40,568 nucleotides of DNA from a virus: positions 1 through 40,568 of IMG/VR virus record IMGVR_UViG_3300022198_000522, one strand, 5' to 3'. The notes below the pieces were generated by a model. The model was not told the DNA's origin. It was given only the letters and a program-made list of their open reading frames with translations, and did not search any database. Below are positions 7,071-22,857 of the stretch, piece after piece. Position numbers and translations under genes: made by a program. Numbering within the stretch: position 1 is the stretch's first letter; each line of letters starts with the position of its first letter.

Positions 7071-8822
7071 TTAAGGTTGCATTGTTAAGAAGCTATCGCC
7101 TTGTTGCATCGCTGCTTCGGCACGGATGTCACGTTCACGTACAGCAGCTTCTTGGGCTGCACGTTGCTCTACTTGTGTCATCAATTCTTCTTGGGTAGCC
7201 ATACGGTCACCCTCTTGTAATTCACCGGACGCTAACTCTGTCGGAGTCATAATCATCGGAACTGCTGCGGCAGGACCCATACCGAAACCGACGGCTCGTG
7301 CACCTGTCTCCATAGCTATATCGGCTGCAGCTTGGGCAGGTTCCATAAGAGCAGAGTAGATACCTGCGCCGACTAATCCGTACGATCCTAGTTTGATACC
7401 AAACTTTGATAACTTATCTTTTAGTTTATCTGAAAGGTCGTCTGCAGATGAAAACTCTCTTTTCTGAGGCTTTGCTGCTTTTGCTCTTTCGTCTTTACGA
7501 ATTTCAGCTATTTCAAGTTTTTTACGCTCGTTTGCGCGGATCGTTTCTTCATCTACCCTTGCAGCGGCTTGAATTTCTTCTGGGGTGACTGCTGCTTTTG
7601 CTTTGATGGCTGCAGTCTTCTGCTGGGCTATTGTGGCTTCTGCAGTTGCCTGACGAGCCTTCTCTTCTGCAATTAAAGTAGCTTTTTGATCTTCTATGAG
7701 GGCTGCTCTATCTTCATTAGACAACAAGTCAATATTTATTGTCTTTTGGCTGGTGCCAAAATCGCCCACTGCAAAGGTAGAAGGATTTTCAAGCAGCTTT
7801 GGAATGTCGTTTGCAGGGTTCATACCTGCGTAGTTACGACGCAAGATACTATCGTTAACGTGCCCCATCATACCCTGTACCAAGCCTTCTGGCACGTTGT
7901 ATTGATCGAGCATAATCTTGGGAACAATAGACCGTATAGCAGAAGGGGTTGTAACAGGCTTCTGAGCAAGTTCTATACCTGCTGCTCCTTCTACTTTTAC
8001 GTCAGCTATAGGAAGTACATCAGTAAAGTTTTGAAGACGACTGCCGATGTGTTTGTTAAACGCTTCGGTAAACTTTGCGTCTGTCGTATCAAATAGAAAA
8101 TCAGACTTAGATGATTCTAAGTTTCTTTTGAGAAGCTGCCCCGTAGGAGAATCCAAGTCAAAGCTAAGAGGGGGACGACCCTTCTTATCTGTCTTAGTTA
8201 CTTTTTTACCAGCTACTGTAATTTTATCGCCAGAAATAGTAACGTCCGACTTTTTCAAACCTTGAAGCTGCTCTGGACGATTAGCAGTGGTAGCGTGATA
8301 TCTAATTAAGTCTGCCGTTGCTTGTCCGTACTGATCTTCAATCATAGGAGTAGCTTCAGCGTAAATCTTGGTGAAGTCTTCCATAGAAAGAAGACCTCGC
8401 ATAGGACGTTCACCAGCAAGCCCCGTACGCTGCGTTCCAGCCGCTGTACCTGCCCCTGCAAGCTGTGGGTACATAGCAACTTCTAAATCTGTGCCGGGTA
8501 CTTTTTCCATAACACCAGAAATGGCGTACTTCTTGAAGATACCACTCAAATTGTTTTCTAAAGCCTGTAGGTTACCTGCACGGTTAGACTTGTCTGGGCT
8601 ACCTTCTCTGGTAAATAGCTTTAGGGTTGCCTCGTCTTTCAAATCTTTATAAGGCATAGAAAGATCTAAGCCCATCTTAGTAAAGCCAGACTTGAGGGCG
8701 TTGATACGCTGCCGTGCGTTTTTTGTAATGTTAGGCTGTGATGTAGCTACGTCGATAGCATCCTGTACGGTAGCTTCACCCGCTTTTAGCTTCTCGACAA
8801 ATTCTACTTCGGTGAGTGCCAT
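7071..8822 (-). CDS. Tyrosine-recombinase-like domain fused to an alanine-rich virion-type tail
   Basis: This 583-aa protein sits between TerL and portal. Residues about 150-335 resemble the catalytic domain of tyrosine recombinases: Arg182 in TANRPEQLQGLKKSDV (the Arg I box), a Lys-rich hairpin at 199-215, an Arg297 box reading SAIRS, and GHVNDSILRRNYAG with His321 and Tyr331. The His usually found in the HxxR box is Ser294. Residues 365-455 form a long charged Ala/Glu/Lys coiled coil. Residues about 478-525 are hydrophobic and Gly/Ala rich, as in ejected or membrane-active virion proteins. It could be a recombinase carried in the virion, or a structural protein with a retired recombinase fold. 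Both readings are inference. Confidence 0.7.
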   Translation of the reverse strand: MALTEVEFVEKLKAGEATVQDAIDVATSQPNITKNARQRINALKSGFTKMGLDLSMPYKDLKDEATLKLFTREGSPDKSNRAGNLQALENNLSGIFKKYAISGVMEKVPGTDLEVAMYPQLAGAGTAAGTQRTGLAGERPMRGLLSMEDFTKIYAEATPMIEDQYGQATADLIRYHATTANRPEQLQGLKKSDVTISGDKITVAGKKVTKTDKKGRPPLSFDLDSPTGQLLKRNLESSKSDFLFDTTDAKFTEAFNKHIGSRLQNFTDVLPIADVKVEGAAGIELAQKPVTTPSAIRSIVPKIMLDQYNVPEGLVQGMMGHVNDSILRRNYAGMNPANDIPKLLENPSTFAVGDFGTSQKTINIDLLSNEDRAALIEDQKATLIAEEKARQATAEATIAQQKTAAIKAKAAVTPEEIQAAARVDEETIRANERKKLEIAEIRKDERAKAAKPQKREFSSADDLSDKLKDKLSKFGIKLGSYGLVGAGIYSALMEPAQAAADIAMETGARAVGFGMGPAAAVPMIMTPTELASGELQEGDRMATQEELMTQVEQRAAQEAAVRERDIRAEAAMQQGDSFLTMQP

Positions 8823-8825
8823 AGG

Positions 8826-10523
8826 TTAGTATCCGAATACTTCATCTTGAACCTTGTACACGTGGTTCTTGATTGCGCCTAGTTGTTGGTGAATTGAAGC
8901 GTAACCGCTCATGCGTGTCATTACCATGTAGCGGAGTGCGTCGTATGCGTGATCTTCCGCCTTTGTATCTACGTCTTCGCTGTTGGTTTTTGAAAGCGGG
9001 ATACCAGCAAGCTGTTTGATTGTGTGCTGGCACGTAGAGAATACTCTGAGGCGGGGTTCTTCTGTGTACGGATCGTCACCCAAGCGGCGGTGAACTTCCA
9101 TCTTTCCTTGAATGCGGTTGCGATCTGAAGGGGTCCAACGAACGCCTTGCCTCATCATAACTTCCGCAATAGACGGCCCAAAGCCTGTCTTATTCCAGCA
9201 GGAAGAATCGAGTACGGTGTAGTGAGGTAACGGATCAAGCTGCTCTGCTTCTAGTATTTTATCAGCTAATTGCTCTGCTGTCAAGTGTTTTGCATACAAC
9301 TCACGATAAACCCAGATATTGTTATCCCAGTCAATAGCCCCCCAAAGAACGCACGACGGGCTGGCGTAGCCGTAGTCCGCCGCTCTAATGCGAGGCCAAT
9401 TGGTAGGTAAATCGAAAGGTTCGACAACGTGTCTACTCCGTGAAAATTCAGGGAAGGCCGCTCCCTCTGCCACATCCCAATCCCCATCGAGAAGCCTCTT
9501 CCGCTCGACTTCTGGGAGCGATCTCAACATGGCTTCGTATTGACCGTCTGCCATGAGGTGGGGATTATCTGTCAACCGTGCCGGTACGAACTTGCGGTAG
9601 AACAACGGCTGACCTGCCTTTTCGTGACCAGCAGGCCACACAAACGGCTTCATCGTATCTATGTCGTATGCAGGAAAGGCTTCGTTCTCTGTACGAGAAT
9701 CGATGTACATCTTTTTTACCCACCATCCGCCGACACCGCCGGGGTTGGCTGTACAACGCATATATAGATTCTTTTGTAATTCGGGATCGGTAGAGCGTAA
9801 GCGGGAACGTAGGTAGTCCCAGACGTACGGTGTTGGGTATTGAGTTATTTCATCGATGCCTATCCAGTTGAACGCCTGTCCTTGAAAACGGGTAACGTCC
9901 TTGTCTCTGTCGAGATAGGTAAACCAGATGGTTGCCCCAGATGGGAACACCCACGTGGATTTTGATTCACGAAACTTGGCTCCGGGAAACGCCTTCGTAT
10001 AGAGTTGGCGTGATTTATCGATGAGTTCGGTTAGTTCGTCGAGTGTGCGCCGGAGAAGAAGACCTCGATGATTGGGATTGTGACAATAGCGTAGGGGATC
10101 AGCAAGTAGAGCAAACGACTTGCCACCACCAGCGGCTCCGCCGTAGAGCACGTCTTGTTCGCCTGCCGAAAGAAACTCCTCTTGAGGGCCTTCGTTCGGT
10201 TGAAAGACAACTTCAGAATCTCCGACGAGTTCTGAAATGGGTCCGGGTAGAACGGCGAGATCTCCCATGTCGACAACTGCGCTTCCCTTTCCAGAGATTG
10301 CCTTTTCGACTTTTCCAATTGTCTTCTCCAGTTCACGGGCGTAACTTCTCTGGTCTTCAGCTTTCTTTGTTGACTGCGCTGCTTTCTTCTTTGCAGTCCG
10401 TAATCTTTTCTGTGCAGCACGACGAGCACGTTCAGCGGTGGATAGCTGGTACGTTGCTTTTGGTGCGTTGGGGTCCTTTGGGGGACGACCCGCTTTACGC
10501 TTGGGTGCGTTGGTTTCGCTCAA
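8826..10523 (-). CDS. terL: Terminase large subunit (packaging ATPase and nuclease)
   Basis: This 565-aa protein drives DNA into the head and cuts the concatemer. The N-terminal 75 residues are basic and coiled. The ATPase follows, with Walker A GGAAGGGKS at 128-136, Walker B WIGIDE at 220-225, and an arginine-rich region between them. The RNase H-like nuclease half shows Asp383 in AADYGYASPS, Asp439 in VLDSSCW, and a late DHAYDALRYM near residue 531 that supplies the third acid. The length is typical of phage terminases. It follows a 67-aa gene by four bases and precedes the recombinase-like gene by three, so it is co-transcribed with the head genes. Confidence 0.95.
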   Translation of the reverse strand: MSETNAPKRKAGRPPKDPNAPKATYQLSTAERARRAAQKRLRTAKKKAAQSTKKAEDQRSYARELEKTIGKVEKAISGKGSAVVDMGDLAVLPGPISELVGDSEVVFQPNEGPQEEFLSAGEQDVLYGGAAGGGKSFALLADPLRYCHNPNHRGLLLRRTLDELTELIDKSRQLYTKAFPGAKFRESKSTWVFPSGATIWFTYLDRDKDVTRFQGQAFNWIGIDEITQYPTPYVWDYLRSRLRSTDPELQKNLYMRCTANPGGVGGWWVKKMYIDSRTENEAFPAYDIDTMKPFVWPAGHEKAGQPLFYRKFVPARLTDNPHLMADGQYEAMLRSLPEVERKRLLDGDWDVAEGAAFPEFSRSRHVVEPFDLPTNWPRIRAADYGYASPSCVLWGAIDWDNNIWVYRELYAKHLTAEQLADKILEAEQLDPLPHYTVLDSSCWNKTGFGPSIAEVMMRQGVRWTPSDRNRIQGKMEVHRRLGDDPYTEEPRLRVFSTCQHTIKQLAGIPLSKTNSEDVDTKAEDHAYDALRYMVMTRMSGYASIHQQLGAIKNHVYKVQDEVFGY

Positions 10524-11897: not shown

Positions 11898-11958
11898 CAG
11901 GAAATATGGTATCGGATACTTTTTTTATAAAAAAAATTAAGATGTGGTCGGTTTTTGG

Positions 11959-11987
11959 TTGACAAATGGCGATTTTACCTGTATGAT
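11959..11987 (+). promoter_or_regulatory. Near-consensus sigma70 promoter reading rightward into non-coding DNA
   Basis: TTGACA (11959-11964), a 17-base spacer and TATGAT (11982-11987) on the plus strand form the best promoter in the window. The predicted start is near 11994. No plus-strand gene follows, because the nearest protein genes to the right are on the minus strand. A terminator lies about 100 bases downstream, so the promoter most likely makes a short RNA. It is back-to-back with the minus promoter at 11869-11897, with 61 bases between the two -35 boxes. Confidence 0.75.
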
Positions 11988-11993
11988 GAGGGT

Positions 11994-12095
11994 AAGACCC
12001 GCCGGGAAATAACCCCCATACCTACCGGGACACGTCGGGACACGTAATACGTCGGTTTTGTACCCCATTGGGAGATCCCTTTGGGGTCTTTTTTT
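11994..12095 (+). ncRNA. Predicted ~100-nt small RNA
   Basis: A near-consensus promoter begins transcription around 11994, and an intrinsic terminator ends it at 12089-12095. The span contains no credible reading frame. It includes two direct copies of CGGGACACGT (12027-12036 and 12036-12045, sharing one base) and the GTCGGTTT octamer at 12051-12058. It may be a regulator of phage or host messages, a transcript that acts at replication start, or the product of a decoy promoter. All of these are inference. The existence of the promoter and terminator pair is read directly. Confidence 0.6.
12062..12095 (+). terminator. Intrinsic terminator of the small RNA
   Basis: ACCCCA (12062-12067) pairs with TGGGGT (12082-12087), and inside this GGG pairs with CCC. 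Alternatively GATCCC pairs with GGGGTC around a TTT loop. Seven T residues follow at 12089-12095. On the minus strand no T-run follows the stem, so it works rightward. The left arm is also the exact complement of TCCCAATGGGG at 12115-12125, so a competing structure could form on read-through. Confidence 0.75.
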
Positions 12096-12106
12096 GTCTC
12101 GATCAC

Positions 12107-12131
12107 GGGGGCTATCCCAATGGGGACCCCC
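12107..12131. repeat. G/C hairpin repeating the terminator arm
   Basis: GGGGG (12107-12111) pairs with CCCCC (12127-12131), and TCCC with GGGA inside, around an AATG loop. The 11 bases TCCCAATGGGG at 12115-12125 are the reverse complement of CCCCATTGGGA at 12063-12073 in the terminator. TCCCAATGGGGA also occurs upstream of the minus-strand gene at 18248 (bases 18259-18270). No T-run follows, so it is not a plain terminator. Confidence 0.5.
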
Positions 12132-12488
12132 TACACGTCGGTTTTATTCCCATATCGATAACCCTCAAGGGTAAAATTGCTGTCGACATTGCATAGCAAA
12201 TGCCGGGGGGGTGGGGTGGCTCCTGCGTGCCCGTCAACCAAGCAAATTTATTTATCCCCATCGGTGATGCCCAAGGATGCAACCACACCGGCAACCCCAA
12301 CAAACCAACCCGCCATATATCCCCGCCGAATATCCCGCGCCCGCATATATGCGCGTAAGCTGTTTTGTCATATCGGTTATTTTAAGGGCAAACAATAAGG
12401 GTCAATATAACTAACAACACAGCGGAATAGCCCCGCCCAGATTATCCCGCAATAACAACCCGCAAAGATATTTACTAGGGGTTATCCC
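12132..12488. other. C-rich non-coding tract, possible origin or control region
   Basis: No credible gene is visible in this 357-base stretch. The plus strand is strongly C over G, apart from a G run near 12204-12220. It contains short A/T islands such as ATTTATTTAT near 12247, the perfect 12-base palindrome CGCATATATGCG at 12342-12353, several CCCGCC/CCCCGCC words and a GTCGGTTT octamer at 12137-12144. Two short frames on either strand have poor protein character. Skew, palindrome and A/T islands next to a promoter fit a replication origin, but nothing proves it. Confidence 0.35.
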
Positions 12489-12521
12489 AAAAAGAAACCC
12501 GCCGGACTAGCCAAGCGGGTT
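12489..12521 (-). terminator. Intrinsic terminator of the accessory operon
   Basis: AACCCGC and GCGGGTT (12496-12502 and 12515-12521) form a perfect 7-bp stem. It extends inward by TGG/CCG on the minus strand and is followed there by TTTCTTTTT. It stands about 30 bases past the stop of the last minus gene of the block (12550), so it closes transcription before the non-coding region. Confidence 0.8.
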
Positions 12522-12539
12522 CAAGTGGAGGGAGAATGC

Positions 12540-12560
12540 GTCGGTTTCGTTAGTCGGTTT
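12540..12560 (-). repeat. Two adjacent copies of the over-represented octamer
   Basis: GTCGGTTT occurs at 12540-12547 and 12553-12560. The second copy overlaps the 3' end of the small gene at 12550. By eye the octamer AAACCGAC/GTCGGTTT occurs about 25 times in the window on both strands, against about one expected by chance. Other copies on the minus strand: 11947, 12051, 12137, 15131, 24278, 29976. On the plus strand: 6074, 7285, 11567, 11714, 18383, 18610, 19908, 20131, 20855, 21899, 21921, 26326, 27403, 27635, 28943, 32832, 37252. Confidence 0.65.
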
Positions 12561-13234: not shown

Positions 13235-13645
13235 TTAACTTGCAAGGCGGTATTTAGGCCGCTGGTATCCGATCCGGTTGCATTCGATTTTATAGCCCCG
13301 CTTTCGAAGCTTATAAATCGCTACTTCCACTGCCTTATCGCTCATACCGGTTTCGCGAACTAGGGTCTTTTTATTGATCCCATATTTGCGAATGGCAAGG
13401 CAACGATACACCCGCCCCAGTGATGAATTCGTAAGAAAACCGCGCTTACTTTTACCGCGCTGGCCTACAGTCTTTTCGCCGTTGCGATCCGCAAAGATAG
13501 CCGCAAGGAACCGCTGCGCTGCGGCTTGCTGGCGTTCGTTGATCTCTCGCAAAACAGTCGCCCGCTCATCGTCACGAATAGCCTGTTCCATGCGGTCGGT
13601 AAGGGTTGCAAATTCAGTGATTAGATTTGTTGGAATTTTAGTCAT
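13235..13645 (-). CDS. Winged-helix-like DNA-binding protein
   Basis: This 136-aa basic protein has a helical N-terminal half (DRMEQAIRDDERATVLREI) and a C-terminal half with a plausible winged helix: RVYRCLAIRKYGINKKTLV, then ETGMSDKAVEVAIYKLRKR as the recognition pair, then a short wing GYKIECNRIGYQRPKY. Basic residues cluster in the second helix. It could regulate phage or host promoters, with the palindrome at 11843-11857 as one candidate site, but this is inference. It is preceded by the shared leader of this block. Confidence 0.65.
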   Translation of the reverse strand: MTKIPTNLITEFATLTDRMEQAIRDDERATVLREINERQQAAAQRFLAAIFADRNGEKTVGQRGKSKRGFLTNSSLGRVYRCLAIRKYGINKKTLVRETGMSDKAVEVAIYKLRKRGYKIECNRIGYQRPKYRLAS

Positions 13646-20778: not shown

Positions 20779-21356
20779 ACATACTAACCTTCGACGTGGA
20801 AACAACTCACATCCACAAGGATAGCGGCGGCACGACTGCCCTGCCTTATTTTGGAAACCGACTCGTTTCTATTGGCTACAAGTGGCTAGGTAAGACCGTC
20901 CACTATCACTGTTATTACCACAGTGAAAGGCCAGCCTACGACTTTGCTGCCGAAACATTCCAGCGGGAACTTGACACGGCTAACGTTGTTGTGGGACAAA
21001 ACATAAAGTTTGATCTGTCGTGGATCAGAGAATGCGGATTCAAGTATGAAGGACACGTCTATGATACGATGGTTGCAGAATATATTTTATCGAAAGCCCA
21101 GCGTTGGCCTCTTGGACTTGCTGCTCTTGCAGAAAAGTATGACGTTACCCGCAAGGAGAAAGACCTCGTTGCGCCGTATCTTAAAGACGGCAAGACCTTT
21201 TACGACATACCGTGGGAGATAGTAGAAGAGTACGGAAAAGCTGACGTACTTGCTACTGAAGAGATTGCACTTAAACAGCTTGATGCCTTTGGCACTACCT
21301 TTGAGGAACTATTCAATGACCAACAACTTGATACCGACGTTAAAGCTTTCGCTTGA
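20775..21356 (+). CDS. 3'-5' exonuclease domain of the DNA polymerase (separate gene)
   Basis: This 193-aa protein is a DnaQ-like exonuclease that proofreads DNA. Exo I is FDVETT (Asp and Glu near residues 6-8), Exo II VVGQNIKFDLSWI, Exo III YGKADVLAT with the Tyr and Asp of the YxxxD pair. In T7-like phages this domain is fused to the polymerase. Here it ends with a TGA, and the polymerase continues in the +1 frame from an overlapping start. The two proteins probably associate after translation. A frameshift fusion is possible but not needed. Confidence 0.85.
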   Translation: MNILTFDVETTHIHKDSGGTTALPYFGNRLVSIGYKWLGKTVHYHCYYHSERPAYDFAAETFQRELDTANVVVGQNIKFDLSWIRECGFKYEGHVYDTMVAEYILSKAQRWPLGLAALAEKYDVTRKEKDLVAPYLKDGKTFYDIPWEIVEEYGKADVLATEEIALKQLDAFGTTFEELFNDQQLDTDVKAFA

Positions 21357-22857
21357 AATGACAGATACCCTCGCTCGTATTGAGCAGCAGGGACTCAAGA
21401 TAAACCTACAGACTCTCGATGAGATCGAGAAAGAATACCAAGAAGAGATGGACATCCTTGAGGTACGCCTCAACGAACTGGCGCGGGAAGCTATGGGTGA
21501 CACTCCGGTCAACCTGTCTAGCCCTGATGATCGCAGCGTCTTACTGTATTCCCGCAAAGTGAAGGATAAACCCGCGTGGTCTCGTATGTTTAATCTGGGT
21601 CACGAGATGCGTGGCTCCACAATGAAACCCAAGCTGCGTACCCGAATGAAACGCAGTGAGTTCAACTCAACTGTCCGCCGCATGACAGAGGTAGTTCAAA
21701 AGACACGCGGACATCAATGCACCGATTGTCGTGGGGAAGGCCGTGTCAGCCCTCGCAAGAAAGATGGCACACTAGGCAAAGCAATCCGTATCTGTAAGCC
21801 GTGTAGTGGCACAGGAGTTATCTACGTTCCTACCGGCGAGGTTGCTGGCTTCAAGTTGGTTCCGCGTGATCCGATGGATACGGCATCCGCCGGATTCAAA
21901 ACCGACAAGGTTACTTTAGAAAACCGACAGACTGACCTGTCCGGTGATGCCTACGAGTTTGTTGTTGCCTATGTGCGCTACAATGCGCTTCGTACTTACC
22001 TATCAACATTTGTGGAAGGAATGAAGAATAATGTTGACGAGAATGGTTTTATACATCCAGAGTTTATGCAGTGTGTTACTGCGACGGGTCGTCTTTCGAG
22101 TCGAAATCCTAACTTTCAGAATATGCCACGTGGAAATACCTTCGCTATACGGAAGGTGGTCGAGAGCCGCTTCGAGGGTGGCTCGATACTTGAGGGGGAT
22201 TATTCCCAGTTAGAATTTCGGGTAGCCGGATTCTTAGCCAAAGACAGCCAAGCCTACATCGACGTAAATGAGGGTACAGATGTTCACAGCTATACTGCCA
22301 GTATTATCGGATGCAGCCGACAAGAAGCGAAGGCTCACACCTTCAAGCCGTTGTATGGTGGTGTCACCGGAACCGACGCTCAACAACGCTACTACAGAGC
22401 CTTTAAAGAAAAGTATGAGGGTGTCACCGCTTGGCACGAGCAACTCCAGCGAGAGGCCGTCCAGAAGCGATTAATCACCCTTCCAAGCGGCAGGCAATAT
22501 GCCTTCCCTTACGCACGTTGGACTCAGTGGGGTACGGCTACAAATCGGACTGCAATCTGTAACTATCCGGTGCAGGGATTTGCTACCGCTGACCTATTGC
22601 CTATCGCTCTTGTCAAGCTGCAAAATTTGTTCCTTGACAGAAAACTTATTTCTGTGATATGCAACACGGTACACGATTCTATTGTGGTAGATGTACACCC
22701 AGACGAAAAAGATATTTGTATCAAGCTGATGACAGAGGCAATGATGTCGTTACCTGAAGAGACAATCAGAAGATATAATGTGGCCTATGATATGCCTGTC
22801 GGAATAGAATTAAAAATAGGCAAAAATTGGCTTGACTTGACAGAAGTAGACCTGTAG
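21316..22857 (+). CDS. Family A DNA polymerase with inserted DnaJ-type zinc finger
   Basis: This 513-aa polymerase copies phage DNA. The start is the ATG at 21316 behind a GAGGA site. Pol motifs: A EGDYSQLE with Asp295, B RQEAKAHTFKPLYGG with Arg335, Lys339, Phe343 and Tyr347, C VHDSI with His453 and Asp454. Phe343 is at the position of Phe762 in Escherichia coli Pol I and Tyr526 in T7. Between the helical N-terminal part and motif A lies a DnaJ-like finger CTDCRGEG (135-142) and CKPCSGTG (160-167), a feature recalled from phage HMO-2011. Proofreading comes from the separate gene upstream. Confidence 0.9.
   Translation: MTNNLIPTLKLSLEMTDTLARIEQQGLKINLQTLDEIEKEYQEEMDILEVRLNELAREAMGDTPVNLSSPDDRSVLLYSRKVKDKPAWSRMFNLGHEMRGSTMKPKLRTRMKRSEFNSTVRRMTEVVQKTRGHQCTDCRGEGRVSPRKKDGTLGKAIRICKPCSGTGVIYVPTGEVAGFKLVPRDPMDTASAGFKTDKVTLENRQTDLSGDAYEFVVAYVRYNALRTYLSTFVEGMKNNVDENGFIHPEFMQCVTATGRLSSRNPNFQNMPRGNTFAIRKVVESRFEGGSILEGDYSQLEFRVAGFLAKDSQAYIDVNEGTDVHSYTASIIGCSRQEAKAHTFKPLYGGVTGTDAQQRYYRAFKEKYEGVTAWHEQLQREAVQKRLITLPSGRQYAFPYARWTQWGTATNRTAICNYPVQGFATADLLPIALVKLQNLFLDRKLISVICNTVHDSIVVDVHPDEKDICIKLMTEAMMSLPEETIRRYNVAYDMPVGIELKIGKNWLDLTEVDL

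Follow-up and report, generated by a model that had tools for sequence, protein, structure and literature searches.

What does a strong promoter do in a phage genome when it points into DNA that holds no gene? The question arises at positions 11959-12095 of a virus record of 40,568 bases, which was analyzed at its full length and is called the window here. The first-pass annotation had seen there a promoter-to-terminator unit for a probable small RNA that might act as a regulator.

The window phage is, judged by its sequence, of the HMO-2011 type. Among the isolates listed, HMO-2011 and CRP and HTVC phages have terminases (TerL) 46-58% identical to that of the window, and the DNA polymerase encoded at 21250-22857 carries two CXXCXGXG motifs (CTDCRGEG and CKPCSGTG), a pair that is used as a signature of HMO-2011-type phages (PMC9038755). 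The survey of these phages describes them as a dominant and widespread group in the ocean, and the words "promoter," "intergenic," and "small RNA" do not occur in its main text (PMC9038755), so that their transcriptional control looks little described. Within the DNA polymerase gene, ARAGORN calls a tRNA-Ser (22141-22230, plus strand) that is likely a false positive. Between the terminase and portal genes, the minus strand encodes a 583-aa protein (7071-8822) with a weak tyrosine-integrase match, and a 616-aa ORF lies at the same place in the relative L299.

A promoter that points into non-coding DNA

The promoter, termed P+, lies on the plus strand and consists of a -35 hexamer TTGACA (11959-11964), 17 bases and a -10 hexamer TATGAT (11982-11987), and hexamers and spacer are also found in relatives. 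From the spacing to the -10 hexamer, transcription would start at A11994, which is the base that the first-pass annotation had proposed. The start site lies in a palindrome GGGTAAGACCC that reaches from the discriminator to about +7 (11990-12000), and the leader element GACCCGCCGGGAAATAAC (11996-12013, plus strand) covers the 5' end of the predicted RNA. Both elements occur once in the window, and for the palindrome this single occurrence counts against the promoter switch proposed below. About 100 bases after the start, the hairpin ACCCCATTGGGAGATCCCTTTGGGGT (12062-12087) and a run of seven T (12089-12095) form an intrinsic terminator (12062-12095, plus strand). As no ATG or GTG and no start of an ORF of at least 50 aa was found within 11994-12095, the predicted transcript of about 100 nt (11994-12095, its end placed at the T run) would be untranslated. 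The unit therefore has its own promoter and terminator and no ORF, as is expected of a small RNA gene, and the first-pass description of its anatomy holds. Its rank as the best sigma70 promoter of the window is shared, since the score of 11/12 is also reached by two sites on the minus strand, at 9284 and 27787, both within genes.

Promoter-like matches in the window genome were not more frequent than in shuffled sequences (30 versus 26.7 and 29 versus 28.5) and the observation of P+ in a single genome thus proves little. The 121-nt P+ region folded no better than its shuffles (z = +0.5), leaving the terminator as the sole structured part of the RNA region. Also, a search of Rfam gave no match to the unit at gathering score, with sub-threshold hits only, on the opposite strand at the hairpin of the T- terminator. 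The conserved 5' element and RNA of the T- terminator have ACCCGCCGG in common, but pairing between them was ruled out by their lack of covariation.

Conservation of the P+ unit among related phages

Comparison of sequences with relatives lifts the unit far beyond chance. A conserved P+ promoter with its start in non-coding DNA was found in the window phage and in about 60 related lineages. At the same place, and with a diverged spacer, TTGACA-17-TAnnnT is present in 88 of 96 small-terminase loci (the window being one of them), and a looser pattern extends this to all. A stricter pattern requires this promoter together with the start-site palindrome and a leader of the CCnGCCGGGAnATA type; each of 18 long genomes, among them the window, contains exactly one copy. 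When promoter spacing was tested with the leader as anchor, a test that was too strict, 14 promoters were found for 16 anchors and all of them had a 17-base spacer.

Downstream of the -10 box, relatives show the palindrome, whose arms covary, and then the leader, either as CCnGCCGGGAnATA or in a closely similar form. Palindrome arms of at least 4 bases were present in 23 of 35 distinct start regions, compared to a mean of 12.4 and a maximum of 20 in 500 rounds with shuffled halves. Beyond promoter and terminator, conservation is limited to the first 20 nt or so of the RNA, and the middle of the unit is C-rich and hypervariable. Indels between relatives within the unit are not multiples of three and break any frame, which, together with the lack of ATG and GTG, rules out a coding leader.

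Of 62 non-redundant units, 39 have a hairpin with a T run downstream of P+, compared to 6-13 after shuffling, and in about a third of the lineages the terminator is unrecognized. The formal pair count in a close clade gave weak covariation for the terminator stem; the recurrence of different terminators at a similar place is the stronger evidence for termination there. According to the first-pass annotation, loss of the promoter or of the stem in related phages would speak against its small RNA, and on this point the outcome is divided, as all long relatives retain the promoter and about two thirds of the lineages a terminator.

Among isolates, Pelagibacter phage HTVC115P has the promoter, a GACCTGCCGGGAGC leader and a terminator; in HTVC033P and HTVC103P, the promoter is followed by part of the leader. 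P+ was not seen in the matching gap of the roseophages CRP-3, CRP-235, and CRP-738, and a search for the unit in bacterial genomes gave only two apparent chance hits. The P+ region is a specific and testable control region that also occurs in cultured pelagiphages.

A second group of HMO-2011-type phages has the leader (GCCGGGAGATACA) ahead of an ATG and an ORF of 212 aa (L211 at 8223, L216 at 4925, L217 at 559, L255 at 6456, L288 at 244, and L299 on the minus strand). By eye, the ORF resembles a 2-oxoglutarate-dependent oxygenase, a putative assignment. Since the same leader serves a protein gene there, it is not specific for a small RNA.

P+ and the head-operon promoter keep a helical phase

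As the first-pass annotation had noted, P+ stands back-to-back with the promoter of the head operon, TTGACT-17-TATACT on the minus strand (11897-11869), which scored at least 9/12 in all of 97 loci. The two -35 hexamers are separated by an A/T-tract spacer of 61 bp (11898-11958). Across relatives, in which the best-scoring site of the stretch was taken as the minus promoter, this gap falls into classes of 8-9, 16-18, 28-30, 38-39, 49-52, 61-62, 71, and 82-84 bp. One unit with a gap of 13 bp is off-class, although the 3-bp rule by which classes were merged joins it to 16-18. The best-fitting period of the classes is about 10.7 bp, which is one helical turn, and random class positions rarely match it (P below 0.001, with relatives that share ancestry and are not independent). 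The divergent layout of the isolates HTVC115P (gap of 17 bp) and HTVC033P (gap of 40 bp) fits the phasing.

Phasing is kept although the sequence between the -35 boxes turns over, an unusual comparative signal of two promoters acting together, and P+ and the head promoter probably act as a coupled divergent pair. Where the gap is at least 61 bp, there is probably room for both polymerases at once, and for this reason a simple exclusion of one by the other cannot hold in every lineage.

Neighboring elements and a dispersed octamer

An alignment of 33 relatives revealed a conserved non-coding block at 12150-12235 (TATCGATAAC..AAAATTGCTGTCG..TTGCATAGC..GGGGTGGCTCCTGCG), a candidate origin or packaging site, and CRP isolates contain a comparable GTATAC..GGTGGC stretch. 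Further downstream, AACCCGC..GCGGGTT and a U run form the terminator of the early minus-strand operon (12489-12521, minus strand), in which hairpin, U run and loop are conserved; both arms show changes among relatives and the CTA(G) loop is near-invariant. A simple scan missed this terminator, probably due to its long loop. Rightward, most genes of the long relatives are on the minus strand for about 5-6 kb, and replication genes on the plus strand follow.

Of all 8-mers in the window, AAACCGAC is the most over-represented (25 copies, 1.8 expected). This octamer is densest at 11946-12560, and the P+ unit lies within the cluster. Five exact copies are present in the control region of 660 bp (0.41 expected), among them minus-strand copies just upstream of P+ (11947-11954), within the transcribed unit (12051-12058) and just downstream of it (12137-12144). 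Other lineages have AAACGTAC, AAACAGTG, or AAACGAAC as leading 8-mer, enriched in their own sequence and again found beside the promoter, and no such match was obtained in 6 of 18 long genomes. Near the unit, many relatives encode a small winged-helix-like protein (13235-13645 on the minus strand in the window) with a highly variable recognition helix. This protein was rejected as reader of AAACCGAC, as its recognition helix varies among phages with the same octamer, and no protein was found that tracks the lineage-wise octamer switch. The switching octamer points to an unrecognized DNA- or RNA-binding system in HMO-2011-type phages.

Possible functions of P+

A short untranslated transcript from P+ very probably exists, as inferred from promoter and terminator. 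If it were a small RNA acting in trans, its roughly 100 nt would base-pair with host or phage mRNAs, with pairing seeded by the conserved 5' end or by C-rich stretches. Besides the promoter-to-terminator anatomy and the conserved 5' end of 20 nt, the CGUCGGUUU sequence in the transcript would favor such a role, being the complement of the dispersed AAACCGAC, which is on the coding strand in most of its early-gene copies. However, the octamer is also found beyond the transcript and is mostly antisense in late genes, the RNA has a hypervariable middle broken by indels, it shows no structure besides the terminator and belongs to no Rfam family, the terminator goes unrecognized in about one lineage out of three and the leader is common to a protein gene. 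A trans-acting RNA is therefore rather unlikely. From the earlier proposal of a probable small RNA, we retain a conserved host-type promoter that is predicted to make a short untranslated transcript and is paired with the head promoter; for a regulator in trans the comparison gave no support.

P+ could also be an early promoter with an attenuated leader, where antitermination would let the polymerase pass the terminator, as it does at lambda PR'. This would explain a start-proximal conserved element followed by a terminator, and in HTVC115P, where P+ faces same-strand genes, promoter and terminator precede these genes by about 540 nt if the record is circularized. In every long relative of the window clade, however, the next 5-6 kb downstream are on the opposite strand, and no antiterminator was found, Q-like hits being located in the zinc-finger region of the DNA polymerase, which makes this explanation quite improbable. 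Alternatively, transcription from P+ might open or activate a replication origin in the block at 12150-12235, much as the lambda promoter pO, which is reported to matter for replication beyond its OOP RNA (PMC12197685). The block is close downstream of P+ in relatives and two or three motif repeats in several lineages resemble iterons, but it could equally be a packaging site beside the terminase genes. GC skew was dismissed as evidence for an origin, as it only reflects the direction of the genes and carries no origin signal of its own. Origin-linked transcription is accordingly a very improbable account.

The features of the unit that are best conserved belong to the DNA level, namely the promoter, the start-site palindrome and the helical phase with the head promoter, and the body of the RNA is not conserved. 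As selection keeps these three features, the main job of P+ is probably in cis, and we favor such a role over that of a trans-acting RNA. We estimate a probability of about 0.5 that P+ forms a coupled divergent pair with the head promoter and acts mainly in cis, for example in an early/late switch. The transcript would then more likely be a by-product or a working part of that switch than a trans-acting RNA. Host RNA polymerase would use P+ as a genuine promoter and make a short RNA, untranslated and in most cases terminated about 100 nt further on by the intrinsic terminator, and the other half of the pair would drive the head (late) operon. On the common A/T-tract region, RNA polymerase together with a regulator might couple the two promoters or let them alternate, and the terminator would keep transcription from P+ out of the convergent early operon. 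In a wider and more speculative form, which we consider possible but doubtful, this helically phased pair of host-type promoters, one of them yielding only a short untranslated RNA, would be the early/late switch of HMO-2011-type phages in general and would lie within a cluster of lineage-specific octamers that are read by a putative phage factor binding also genome-wide.

Comparison with known control regions

The proposed divergent switch resembles the early/late switch of phage phi29, which brings together the early promoters A2c and A2b and the late promoter A3, all served by the polymerase of the host, within a short control region with the proteins p4 and p6 (PMC3100819). A divergent pair is present and conserved here, with P+ presumably as the early promoter. 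Unlike in phi29, P+ would make only a short untranslated RNA, and the evidence is helical phasing across lineages rather than protein binding. The winged-helix-like protein (13235-13645) is only a candidate for a p4-like regulator.

Similar to the lambda OOP RNA made from pO, the predicted P+ RNA is short and comes from a dedicated promoter within a control region. OOP is antisense to cII (PMC12197685), whereas the P+ unit overlaps no gene. In cyanophage S-PM2, CfrI is likewise an intergenic non-coding RNA of a marine phage, but it is antisense and linked to psbA (PMC12197685), and the P+ unit, with its predicted RNA, is antisense to no gene.

The octamer recalls the stoperators of Cluster A mycobacteriophages, which are also short asymmetric sites spread over the genome with a consensus that differs between lineages (PMC6550527). 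Its core has 8 bp instead of 13 (PMC6550527). Stoperators have one predominant orientation relative to transcription, whereas AAACCGAC is mostly sense in early genes and mostly antisense in late genes.
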